This document shows positions 3,282-6,692 of a stretch of DNA of 54,291 bases, piece by piece (the first letter of the stretch is position 1; each line of letters opens with the position of its first letter). The stretch lies in the NCBI GenBank assembly GCA_016124975.1, contig WGMP01000005.1, positions 1-54,291 of the forward strand, read 5' to 3'. Below the pieces are notes generated by a model that was not told the DNA's origin, ran no database searches, and saw only the letters and a list, made by a program, of their open reading frames with translations. This DNA is from Phycisphaera sp. Its GTDB lineage: Bacteria > Planctomycetota > Phycisphaerae > Phycisphaerales > SM1A02. The translations under genes and the position numbers were made by a program.

Positions 3282-6227
3282 ATGTCGACCGCGTCTTCCA
3301 GCTCTCATTCCGCCGCCGCACCCGCCAGCCACGAGGCGCCCGCGTTGATCGAGGAGCTCGCGGGCGGATTCAGGGAGACGGCCGAGGGCGTCGTGCCCTG
3401 GTTCGTGTCGCAGATGCCGCCGAGCTATTTCCAGGACACCGACCGCGCGAGCCAGCTGGCGCATCTCCGCGCCATCATCGCGGCGAAGGCCTCGGGCCGG
3501 CCGATCGACCTCACGCTGAAGAGCGAGGATGCCCGCCAGCTCACGCTCATCCGCAGCGACAACTACCCGGGCATCCTCGCCGAGCTCGTCGCGCAGCTCC
3601 CGCTCGACCGCTCGCTGCGCGCGGCCAAGATCCACTCGAGCTTCGACGGAACGCTCGTCCTCGACACCTTCGTCTTCGGCGACCCCGAGCCCTTCGACAG
3701 CCGCGACCCGCGCCAGGCCGCGAAGCTCGCCGACACGATCCGCTACGCCAGGGAGAACGGCCTCGAGTGGACGCCCGACCAGATCTCCGCCTACTTCGCG
3801 GGCTGCTCGGCGGAGTATGTCCTCACCTGCACCCCGCTTCGCATCGCGGCGCACTGGCGGCTCTACAGCAAGGTCAGCGGCACCGACGGCGCGATCATCG
3901 AGCTCGAGCGCGAGTCGCACCCGACGATGAGCCGCATCGTGGTCGTCGTCGAGAACGCGCGCACGCGCACCATGCTCGAGCGGACGGCCACGATCCTCGC
4001 GCGACATGATGTCTCGATCCACCGCGCCCACCTCGACATCGTGCGCGACGGCAAGGGCGGCTCCGTCACCTTCGTCGGCTTCGTCGTGCAGGGCGCGGAT
4101 GGCAAGGCCGTCGTCGCCGACGGCGCCGCGTGGAAGGGCGTCCAGCGCGACCTTCGCCGCATCAAGTGGGTCGACGACAAGGCGCTCGCGCTCGCGAGCC
4201 GCCACGACGCGCTCGAGATCGACCACGCCGAGGCGCTCGTCGCCCTCTGCAACCTGTCGCACCAGGTCCTGTCGCCGAAGAACCGCTTCCTGTGGACGCG
4301 CGAGCGCATCCAGTCGCTGGCGGAGGAGTCTCTCCCCGTGTCGGTGAAGGTGGTGGCGCTCCTCCTCGCGCGCTTCAACCCCGACCGCCCGCTCTCCGAC
4401 GCCGAGTTTGCGGCCGAGCGCGCCAAGGTGGAGGCCGAGATCACGAGGCAGCCAACCGAGATGCACCGCACGGTGCTCACGCACATGCTCGAGGGCGTCG
4501 CCGCCACGCTGCGCACGAACTACTACCTTCCCGACCGCTTCGCGCTCTGCCTGCGCATCGATCCGTCGTACCTCGCGAACCCCGAGCGGCCGGAGCTCCC
4601 CTATGCGACCTTCTTCGTGCATGGCCGCGAGTTCGACGGCTTCCACAACCGCTTCCAGGACATCGCCCGCGGCGGCCTGCGCGTGATCCGCACGCAGAAC
4701 TCCGCGCAGCACACGCGCGAGAGCGAGCGCCTCTTCGACGAGGTCTACGGCCTCTCGTGGGCGCAGCAGCTGAAGAACAAGGACATTCCCGAGGGCGGCG
4801 CCAAGGCCGCGATCCTGCTCGAGCCGCACGCCACGGTCGACCGCTGCGTGAAGGCGTTCGTCGACTCGATCCTCGACCTGATCGTGCAGACGCCGGAGAC
4901 GAAGAGGCTCGTCGTCGATCGATTCGGCCGCGAGGAGCTCATCTACCTCGGGCCTGACGAGAACATCACCCCCGCCCACATCGTGTGGATCGTCGAGCGC
5001 GCGTGGCGACGCGGCTACTCGCTGCCCACCGCGTTCATGAGCTCGAAGCCCGGCGCTGGCATCAACCACAAGGTCTACGGCGTCACGAGCGAAGGCGTGA
5101 ATGTCTTCCTCGATGTGGCGCTCCGCTCGCGCGGCATCGACCCGCGCACGCAGCGCTTCACCGTGAAGATCACGGGCGGCCCCGACGGCGACGTGGCGGG
5201 CAACATGATGCGCATTCTCGACCGCGACTACGGCAAGAACGCCGTGATCGTCGGCGTCGGCGACGGCTCGGGCTGCGGCGAGGACCCCGAGGGACTCGAC
5301 CATGCCGAGCTCCTGCGCCTCTTCAAGGAGGGGCTGCCCATCGCGAGCTTCGACAGGAAGAAGCTCTCGCCGAAGGGTCGCATCGTGTCGGTCGACGAGC
5401 CTGACGGCGCGGCGCTCCGCAACACGCTGCACAACCGCCTCGTGACCGATGCGTTCGTCCCGGGCGGCGGGCGCCCCGCCACGATCCACGAGGGCAACTG
5501 GCAGGAGTTCCTCACCGCGGACGGAAAGCCGAGCGCGACGGTGATCTCGGAGGGCGCGAACCTCTTCATCACGCCCGGCGCGCGCGAGGAGATCGCCAAG
5601 CGCGGCGCGACGGTCATCAAGGACTCGTCCGCCAACAAGTGCGGCGTGATCTGCTCGAGCTACGAGATCAGCGCGTGCATGGTGCTCACCGACGAGGAGT
5701 TCCTCTCGATCAAGGACACCTATGTGTCGCAGGTGCTCGAGCGGCTGCGCGAGCTCGCGCGCGTCGAGGCAGAGTTCCTCATGCGCGCCGCGAAGACGAT
5801 GACGAGCCTGTCGCTGCCGAAGATCTCGGTCGAGCTCTCGAAGGTCATCAACACGAGCGCGGCGGCGATCGCCGCGGGCGTCCCGAACTGGCCCGCGGAG
5901 GACCGCGAGCTCGCCAAGCAGATGATCCGCGACCACCTGCCGCGGGTCCTCTTCGAGTTCGCGGGCGAGCGCGTGTGGACGAAGCTGCCGCAGTCGTACC
6001 AGACCTGGATCATCGCGAACCGCCTCGCGAGCTCGATCGCCTATCGCGAGGGCCTCGACTTCTTCGAGGGCTCCTCGCCCGCGGAGATCGCGGATGTCGC
6101 GCGGCGCTACATGAAGAGCGACCTCGCGAACCGCGAGATCGTGTCGAAGGTGCGCGCGTCGAACCTCGCGGACAAGGAGCACATCGCATCGCTCCTCGAG
6201 CGCGGCGGAGCCCGCGCGGGCATCTGA
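3282..6227 (+). CDS. gdh: NAD-specific glutamate dehydrogenase, large type
   Basis: This 981-residue enzyme should oxidatively deaminate glutamate to 2-oxoglutarate and ammonia with NAD. It belongs to the large-subunit NAD-GDH class rather than the 450-residue hexameric class, but is much shorter than the roughly 1600-residue proteobacterial form. Seen in sequence: an ACT-like regulatory segment around residues 220-275, the substrate loop RGGLRVI, the catalytic-lysine motif EGGAKAA (Lys about 508), a KPGAGINHK segment, and the NAD-binding GGPDGDVAGN motif near residue 632. The ATG at 3282 follows a GAGAGG site; the reading frame extends far upstream but only as antisense of ribF. A TATCCT hexamer at 3235-3240 is a possible -10 box. 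The last nine codons and the stop form the first copy of a 31-bp tandem repeat. Confidence 0.93.
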   Translation: MSTASSSSHSAAAPASHEAPALIEELAGGFRETAEGVVPWFVSQMPPSYFQDTDRASQLAHLRAIIAAKASGRPIDLTLKSEDARQLTLIRSDNYPGILAELVAQLPLDRSLRAAKIHSSFDGTLVLDTFVFGDPEPFDSRDPRQAAKLADTIRYARENGLEWTPDQISAYFAGCSAEYVLTCTPLRIAAHWRLYSKVSGTDGAIIELERESHPTMSRIVVVVENARTRTMLERTATILARHDVSIHRAHLDIVRDGKGGSVTFVGFVVQGADGKAVVADGAAWKGVQRDLRRIKWVDDKALALASRHDALEIDHAEALVALCNLSHQVLSPKNRFLWTRERIQSLAEESLPVSVKVVALLLARFNPDRPLSDAEFAAERAKVEAEITRQPTEMHRTVLTHMLEGVAATLRTNYYLPDRFALCLRIDPSYLANPERPELPYATFFVHGREFDGFHNRFQDIARGGLRVIRTQNSAQHTRESERLFDEVYGLSWAQQLKNKDIPEGGAKAAILLEPHATVDRCVKAFVDSILDLIVQTPETKRLVVDRFGREELIYLGPDENITPAHIVWIVERAWRRGYSLPTAFMSSKPGAGINHKVYGVTSEGVNVFLDVALRSRGIDPRTQRFTVKITGGPDGDVAGNMMRILDRDYGKNAVIVGVGDGSGCGEDPEGLDHAELLRLFKEGLPIASFDRKKLSPKGRIVSVDEPDGAALRNTLHNRLVTDAFVPGGGRPATIHEGNWQEFLTADGKPSATVISEGANLFITPGAREEIAKRGATVIKDSSANKCGVICSSYEISACMVLTDEEFLSIKDTYVSQVLERLRELARVEAEFLMRAAKTMTSLSLPKISVELSKVINTSAAAIAAGVPNWPAEDRELAKQMIRDHLPRVLFEFAGERVWTKLPQSYQTWIIANRLASSIAYREGLDFFEGSSPAEIADVARRYMKSDLANREIVSKVRASNLADKEHIASLLERGGARAGI

Positions 6228-6335
6228 CGAGCGCGGCGGAGCCCGCGCGGGCATCTGACGAGCGCGGCGGAGCCCGCGCGGGCATCTGACGAGCGCGGCG
6301 GAGCCCGCGCGGGCATCTGACGAGCGCGGCGGAGC
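6198..6335. repeat. 31-bp tandem repeat spanning the gdh stop codon (4.4 copies)
   Basis: The unit starts GAGCGCGGCGGAGCCC and ends GGGCATCTGAC. Copies lie at 6198-6228, 6229-6259, 6260-6290 and 6291-6321, with a partial copy to 6335. The first copy is the coding end of gdh (residues ERGGARAGI and the TGA), so the coding terminus plus stop has been amplified into the 3' region. The full copies are essentially identical. Confidence 0.95.
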
Positions 6336-6346
6336 GACGAAGTTCA

Positions 6347-6692
6347 TCGCGCGACACGAGAGTCAGGGGTGCCCGCATGCTTCAGCATGCGGAACGGATG
6401 ATGTCAGCCGTCGACTCCGACGGTTGTCGTTCAGCAGACTGAAGTCTGCTGGCACACTTGGTTGGGGACTCCGACGATCTGAATGGTGCGACACGCAAAT
6501 CCGGGGTGCCCGTGGACTTCAGTCCGCGGAACGGATGATGTCAGCCGTCGACTCCGACGGTTGTCGTTCAGCAGACTGAAGTCTGCTGGCACACTTGCTT
6601 GGGGACTCCGACGATCTGAACCGTGCGATACGAGAATCAGGGGTGCCCGCATGCTTCAGCATGCGGAACGGATGATGTCAGCCGTCGACTCC
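6347..6692. repeat. 137-bp intergenic tandem repeat with paired palindromes (2.5 copies)
   Basis: Units start at 6366, 6503 and 6640 (each at GGGGTGCCC); the third is cut short at the end of the next gene. Each full unit has two hairpins: CCGCATGC-TTCA-GCATGCGG (6373-6392) and CAGCAGAC-TGAA-GTCTGCTG (6432-6451). In the middle copy the first hairpin is CCGTGGAC-TTCA-GTCCGCGG (6510-6529), so both arms changed and pairing is kept with one G-T wobble. The block fills most of the 473-bp gene-free stretch after gdh. No open frame or transposase was seen in it. Confidence 0.92.

Follow-up and report, generated by a model that had tools for sequence, protein, structure and literature searches.

The repeat cluster at this locus raises the question of why its hairpins remain paired while the sequence of their arms changes from copy to copy. 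The window, i.e., the whole stretch of 54,291 nucleotides that was analysed, holds at 6347-6692 a 137-bp repeat, twice complete and a third time in part, in which five hairpins with 8-bp stems occur. An initial annotation had described the 137-bp spacing, the hairpins, their loops and the arm changes, all of which were confirmed in the window, and had read them as selection on structure, acting either on an RNA element with kissing loops or on a site for a RAYT-type transposase.

Structure of the window cluster

Hairpins of the first type lie at 6373-6392, 6510-6529 and 6647-6666, and those of the second type, identical to each other, at 6432-6451 and 6569-6588. The first type (A) has the loop TTCA and the second (B), 39 nt further on, the loop TGAA. 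The features are as follows.

6369-6455, plus strand: REPIN unit 1 (87 nt), made of GTGC, REP A, an inner spacer of 39 nt, REP B in inverted orientation and GCAC
6373-6392, plus strand: REP A hairpin of unit 1, CCGCATGC-TTCA-GCATGCGG
6409-6422, plus strand: central hairpin in the inner spacer of unit 1, CGTCG-ACTC-CGACG, its pairing weakly kept across copies
6432-6451, minus strand: REP B hairpin (inverted REP) of unit 1, reading CAGCAGAC-TTCA-GTCTGCTG on that strand
6452-6509, no strand: outer spacer (58 nt) from REP B to the following REP A
6506-6592, plus strand: REPIN unit 2
6510-6529, plus strand: REP A hairpin of unit 2 with different arms, CCGTGGAC-TTCA-GTCCGCGG, including one G-T wobble
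6546-6559, plus strand: central hairpin in the inner spacer of unit 2
6569-6588, minus strand: REP B hairpin of unit 2, with CAGCAGAC arms
6643-6692, plus strand: truncated third unit, with the GTGC foot, the REP A hairpin at 6647-6666 and the start of the inner spacer

On the opposite strand, REP B consists of a GTGC foot, the 8-bp stem with its TTCA loop, and AACG, i.e., it is the REP A element inverted. This inversion of the first hairpin into the second, feet (GTGC / AACG) included, had gone unmentioned in the initial annotation, as had the third, central hairpin at about 6409-6422. Between the first and second copies of REP A, three stem pairs are altered on both sides (A-T to G-C, T-A to G-C, and G-C to A-T), and at a fourth position a C-G pair has become a T-G wobble. 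The last of the three hairpins of the first type matches the first exactly, so the window alone holds just two arm versions; its two complete 137-bp units are 87 percent identical.

Copy number, geometry and genomic location

Many more copies were found outside the window, and an absence of copies elsewhere in the genome, which had been named beforehand as grounds for abandoning the idea, is clearly not what was seen. The strict pattern GGGTGCCN{17,18}GGAACG had 151 matches across the source genome, versus none for the reversed-pattern control, and BLAST with a 361-bp query gave 92 matches in the same genome as well as matches in 5 of the 15 other genomes of the genus. In 56 stretches retrieved from the source genome, 218 hairpins were counted, likely a lower bound in view of the choice of stretches from BLAST, model and first-listed pattern matches. 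They fall into 60 clusters (no cluster longer than 100 bp being contained in another), 6 of which are single hairpins and 34 of which come to within 150 bp of where a retrieved stretch ends, usually at a contig end. This is a short palindrome in many copies, as is characteristic of a REP (repetitive extragenic palindrome). Within the genus, a covariance model recovered the hairpin in 7 of 16 genomes, two of these with a single match, and in the rest of the family it recovered none in 165 genomes; since 37 candidates per genome were scored under strict filters, these counts reach a ceiling and weak copies are missed. A pattern scan of named records returned 13 stretches, of which Loclat_bin-07423 contributed 4 and Planctomycetaceae bacterium 49613_E25 contributed 3, the other 6 being single matches in other genomes that were taken as chance.

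The arrangement of the copies is highly regular. Inward-facing hairpin pairs are spaced 39 nt apart in 78 of 79 cases (the remaining one at 38), and the strand alternates in 146 of 153 neighbouring hairpins. The repeat unit thus joins two inverted REPs at a constant spacing, the geometry of a REPIN or BIME. Among the 130 TTCA hairpins whose foot lay within the retrieved stretch (131 were found without a flank rule), the foot was GTGC in 124, GTAC in 3 and something else in 3. None had the GT[AG]G foot of the canonical GTAG super-family, and the 3' foot, AACG in 120 of the 130, reads CGTT on the opposite strand, not the CGTC of the other super-family.

None of the 154 hairpins tested (40 clusters) lies inside a predicted gene, the extragenic position usual for REPs, and the nearest gene ends are 3' ends in 44 of 52 cases (our own tally; binomial p = 4e-7), 28 of the 40 clusters having a gene on one side only. 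It is to be noted that genes were predicted by our own codon-usage score, for which 16 long frames from the window served as training set, a rough method that missed RAYT-1, described below. The long gene beside the window cluster is presumably an NAD-glutamate dehydrogenase, and the second neighbour is a convergent gene. The same gene pair in five other genomes is separated by about 82, 95, 145, 208 and 244 bp, versus 480 bp here (aligned ends). Hairpins of this type are absent from the site in four of the five congeners that keep both neighbours, and the fifth (G013) has one hairpin there with other arms, CCGCAGAT, and the loop GCA; G015 was left uncounted on account of a partial match further off, and in the remaining nine the second gene was unmatched within the retrieved stretch. 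The absence in four of five congeners is compatible with a gain at the window site.

A separate tandem repeat precedes the cluster at 6197-6344, where about 4.6 copies of a 31-bp unit containing a GCCCGCGCGGGC palindrome stand in tandem; the first of them forms the extreme end of the dehydrogenase-like gene and takes in its stop codon. Distinct tandem units of their own were seen at the corresponding gene end in G003, G006, G008 and G011, and the G006 locus also has, behind the gene, a GGTCGCCGC..GCGGCGACCGCTCAA palindrome similar to a repeated GCAGCCGCAGCTGCGACCGCTCAA unit found beyond a cluster of the source genome (L070:2120-2185, G000:C50).

Overall, the element in the window is probably a REPIN cluster (BIME), a presumably mobile, non-autonomous repeat of this uncultured planctomycete. 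The tandem, palindromic and regularly spaced copies might be taken for an array of integron attC sites or of CRISPR repeats; both readings can practically be dismissed, given 60 dispersed clusters and window copies with no cassette or unique spacer between units that are 87 percent identical.

Paired changes in the hairpin arms

Covariation of the arms was measured against shuffled, slid and arm-swap controls. In a collection of 132 distinct hairpins, which had been selected for pairing so that their 100 percent pairing is by construction, seven of the eight stem pairs change on both sides, with 193 such cells versus at most 20 in the slid controls. Since the hairpins were first collected by required pairing, which biases covariation, the count was redone on sites picked solely for their flanks, from the source genome and its congeners; in that set, where the outermost C-G was fixed by the search pattern, 202 of 218 sites pair at all eight positions when G-T is allowed. 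Among distinct stem-loops, 30 of 46 pair fully, versus 229 of 2070 after arms were swapped between stem-loops. Because the copies share descent, the independent changes are fewer than these counts suggest. Nonetheless, a lack of covariation among the copies, which would have counted against the initial annotation, is not what was seen, and the paired arm changes support its proposal of selection on structure.

The main stems in the source genome are CCGCATGC, CCGTGGAC, CAGCAGAC, CCGCAGGT, CCGGGGAC and CCTTGGAC, of which CCGTGGAC occurs either with a wobble and the loop TTCA or perfectly paired with the loop GAA; further stems, among them CCGCAGAC, CCGCACCC, CCCGGGAT and CCGGGGAT, were found in congeners. 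Clear covariation is limited to the two REP stems. The central hairpin is paired in 78.6 percent of cells, with two pairs changing on both sides, and the outer closing stem is invariant across copies.

Facing stems of one unit are unlike in the source genome

Comparison of the two stems within each unit revealed a second regularity. In 78 units of the source genome, the A and B stems are alike in none, versus 7.3 expected, a result that 2 of 50000 shuffles reach; frames were sorted by script for this test, and one of the 79 units was left out for its ambiguous frame. With counting done once for each stretch, like stems number 0 of 68 versus 6.4 expected (6 of 50000 shuffles), and units whose A and B stems share even one arm number 0 versus 11.6 expected. 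Shuffling without frame sorting raises the expectation to 13.4, which is overstated. Because whole units are copied, the units are not independent. The most conservative count considers combinations only: the frame-sorted units have three main stems on the A side and five on the B side, 12 of the 15 combinations are present, and both like-stem combinations are among the three that are missing (P = 0.029).

Outside the source genome the pattern is looser. Like stems occur in 0 of 7 units of G012, and among neighbouring inverted pairs in 0 of 7 in G004, 0 of 2 in G005 and 2 of 6 in G013, where the two exceptions, one of them unit-like, are spaced at 44 nt and 115 nt; the pair finder used for congeners was less strict, and it seems to have picked up a few chance hairpins, including one within the six G013 pairs. 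The rule of unlike stems is thus strong in the source genome and, given the G013 exceptions, not universal.

It is quite possible, if short of an even chance, that the unlike stems record history and not selection, the A and B frames having been founded with different stems and then copied as whole units. The modest P of 0.029 on stem combinations would agree with such a history, as would the like-stem pairs of G013 at 44 nt and 115 nt and the three of seven G012 units in which the stems differ at a single pair. Against it, the CCGCATGC stem is found on both sides in the source genome (26 at A, 22 at B), which, together with the 12 major combinations present, means that the two sides do mix, and both like-stem combinations are nevertheless among the three that are lacking.

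The other explanation, which we put forward tentatively and regard as possible but less likely than not, is that the stems are exchangeable paired cassettes in a constant frame, for which self-pairing is required and pairing with the partner excluded, so that the covariation traces selection against partner pairing in addition to selection for a hairpin. In the REPIN reading favoured here, too, each stem would have to pair with itself, and the facing stems of one unit would have to avoid pairing with each other into a long cruciform; such a ban would favour units of two different stems and could explain the several stem versions within one constant frame. Partner pairing would do harm through the long cruciform itself, through loss to palindrome nucleases, or through a fold that the transposase could not use.

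RAYT genes and their hairpins

The search for a Y1 or RAYT gene that the initial annotation had advised was successful. Genes with PF01797 number two in the source genome, and at least one was found in 13 of the 16 genomes of the genus. One of the two, RAYT-1 (G000:C15:38529-39095), encodes a REP-associated tyrosine transposase; it scored 89.3 bits with the RAYT model NF047646 (cut-off 80), and is adjoined by an A-B-A cluster, the nearest hairpin of which ends 101 bp before the chosen start codon; the RAYT-type enzyme that had been suggested is thus encoded about 100 bp beyond one of the clusters. The protein has the motifs HVH and YIHLNP, i.e., the HUH and Y---NP signatures, and across 15 aligned proteins both histidines, the Y and the N are invariant and the P is nearly so. 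As a single sequence RAYT-1 had no match among PDB sequences, whereas the 15-row profile of its family matched 4er8, TnpArep, at 4.3e-14, and also ISDra2. 4er8 was also the top fold match of the predicted structure (mean pLDDT 86.6), with the TnpA of ISDra2 and IS608 also matched.

A third gene, RAYT-2 (G000:C14, L132:1776-2661), was recovered with RAYT-1 as query and is about 40 percent identical to it. It is flanked on both sides by a hairpin of the type GGGTGC-CACCACT-TCT-AGTGGTG (REP-2), a sequence found elsewhere in the source genome on C20 only. As judged from their sequences, two enzymes of this kind are encoded in one genome, each accompanied by a hairpin of its own, and both hairpins have the GTGC foot. 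A Y1 gene on contig C30 (L028) was set aside as a RAYT, its NF047646 score being 60.8 against the cut-off of 80; TTCA hairpins of the present kind were absent from L028 and from L078.

We consider it likely that the repeats were spread by the RAYT adjoining one of their clusters. Such an enzyme, of the HUH type with a single tyrosine, would bind each REP as a folded single strand through the GTGC foot and the hairpin, cut beside it during replication, and pass the unit to new intergenic sites, and the tandem 137-bp copies would then arise by recombination or slippage.

Alternatively, the REPs are real and RAYT-1 is not their enzyme, in which case they would be relics or moved by another enzyme and the adjacency would be coincidental. 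We regard this as unlikely, with several observations bearing on it. A REPtron is a RAYT gene with its own REPs on either side; at RAYT-1 the A-B-A cluster lies on one side only, which would suit a coincidence. Across the genus, G004 and G013 have 22 and 26 matches to the repeat model and no RAYT-1 relative below E = 1e-20 (the best in G004 is at 6.4e-8, and G013 has none at 0.001), in assemblies that are 82-83 percent complete; they have one and two other PF01797 matches, respectively, that of G004 having no such hairpin nearby. Conversely, G006 has a RAYT-1 relative and lacks the repeat. The notion that the presence of a RAYT tracks that of the repeat across the genus was rejected on this mismatch (G004, G013, G006). 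Furthermore, the RAYT-1 relatives at L103-L105 (in G012, G006, and one of two in G005) are accompanied by another hairpin type, TCGTGTGG-CATCACC. On the other hand, with about 60 clusters in 3.6 Mb, adjacency to a RAYT by chance is unlikely (a rough judgement), and RAYT-2, with its own GGGTGC-foot hairpin on both sides, fits one enzyme per repeat family.

The hairpin at L103, L104 and L105 reads in full TCGTGTGG-CATCACC-TCT-GGTGATG and has a GTGG foot; none was visible at the second G005 relative (L133), and no enzyme matching the repeats of G012 was seen. Other repeats were observed as well. In G012 (C157, L040:570-640), a GTGCCTGGCACC / GGTGCCAGGCAC repeat lies behind another Y1 transposase gene. 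In G005, at L141, L142 and L143, REP-like hairpins lie beside the repeats CCGCCGCGC...GCGCGGCGG and CCCAGTG-CGAAGC-CACTGGG or its inverse; since they adjoin this other repeated hairpin set, composite repeats exist in that genome.

The case for an RNA element

The complementary loops of hairpins 1 and 2 had suggested kissing loops in an RNA. The data lend this proposal no support: complementary loops follow from the fact that the second hairpin repeats the first in inverted orientation, and exact complementarity was found in 41 of 66 units and not in the other 25. Nor was there a significant association between the loop length classes at the two sites (odds ratio 3.1, Fisher p = 0.12), although with few units a weak association is possible.

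More broadly, an RNA element behind gene ends, a cloverleaf with interacting loops that controls mRNA ends, is very unlikely. It would accommodate the position of the clusters, mostly behind the 3' ends of genes, and the frequent G-T wobbles at one stem pair. One unit also folds better as RNA than its shuffles do (z of -3.3), the DNA value being about equal (-3.55), and the folds of the first unit, as DNA and as RNA, are clover-shaped with the two REP hairpins apart. However, the outer closing stem of this cloverleaf is invariant and thus uninformative, the central hairpin is paired in the 78.6 percent of cells given above, the loops of 25 of 66 units are not exactly complementary, and no Rfam family reached its gathering score at the element, the search of the window returning tRNA only. 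Any RNA-level effect of the REPIN cluster on the neighbouring gene ends would be secondary.

Relation to known systems and significance

The nearest known counterparts are the REPINs or BIMEs that accompany RAYTs, e.g., in Pseudomonas fluorescens SBW25. Compared with the SBW25 elements (PMC3116915), the planctomycete repeats have a GTGC foot, their stems vary as paired blocks while the frame around them stays constant, and no unit of the source genome has two identical facing stems. They resemble the GTAG- and CGTC-tagged REPs (PMC3733652) in being short (near-)perfect hairpins that form inverted dimers, lie mostly behind genes and are commonly heterodimers, and differ in a tag that is neither GTAG nor CGTC. 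In the same paper, Di Nocera and colleagues find no obvious reason why heterodimers should be preferred and suggest that heterodimers may escape an SbcCD-like removal of palindromes (PMC3733652).

Among the TnpAY1 classes (PMC6006769), RAYT-1 shares Y---NP with class 2 (TnpAREP) and lacks the Y----Q signature of class 3, a class with a CnGA foot and high-copy hairpins that is known chiefly from Planctomycetes, Acidobacteria and Proteobacteria. RAYT-1 is about 20 percent identical to E. coli TnpAREP (4er8). The stem of the E. coli REP is bulged and its foot is GTAG (PMC8266576), unlike the GTGC foot here. Under the guide rule set out in that paper, a foot of GTGC would predict cutting at GA or GC next to the hairpin. 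In openly licensed literature, judged by titles and the beginnings of abstracts, the repeat family is undescribed, an absence that carries little weight; in the RepRanger article (PMC12306157) the words Planctomycet, Phycisphaer, GTGC and transposase do not occur. What is new here is that the facing stems are never alike in 78 units of one genome.

A REPIN family with an unusual GTGC foot in a planctomycete offers a test case for unlike REP dimers, and two RAYT-hairpin pairs in one genome should help in tests of how the foot determines where the cut is made. The excess of heterodimers, called unexplained in print, is countable here in one family against a shuffle; since this family presents several stems in one frame, over 78 units, the question can be tested by counting together with a stability assay.
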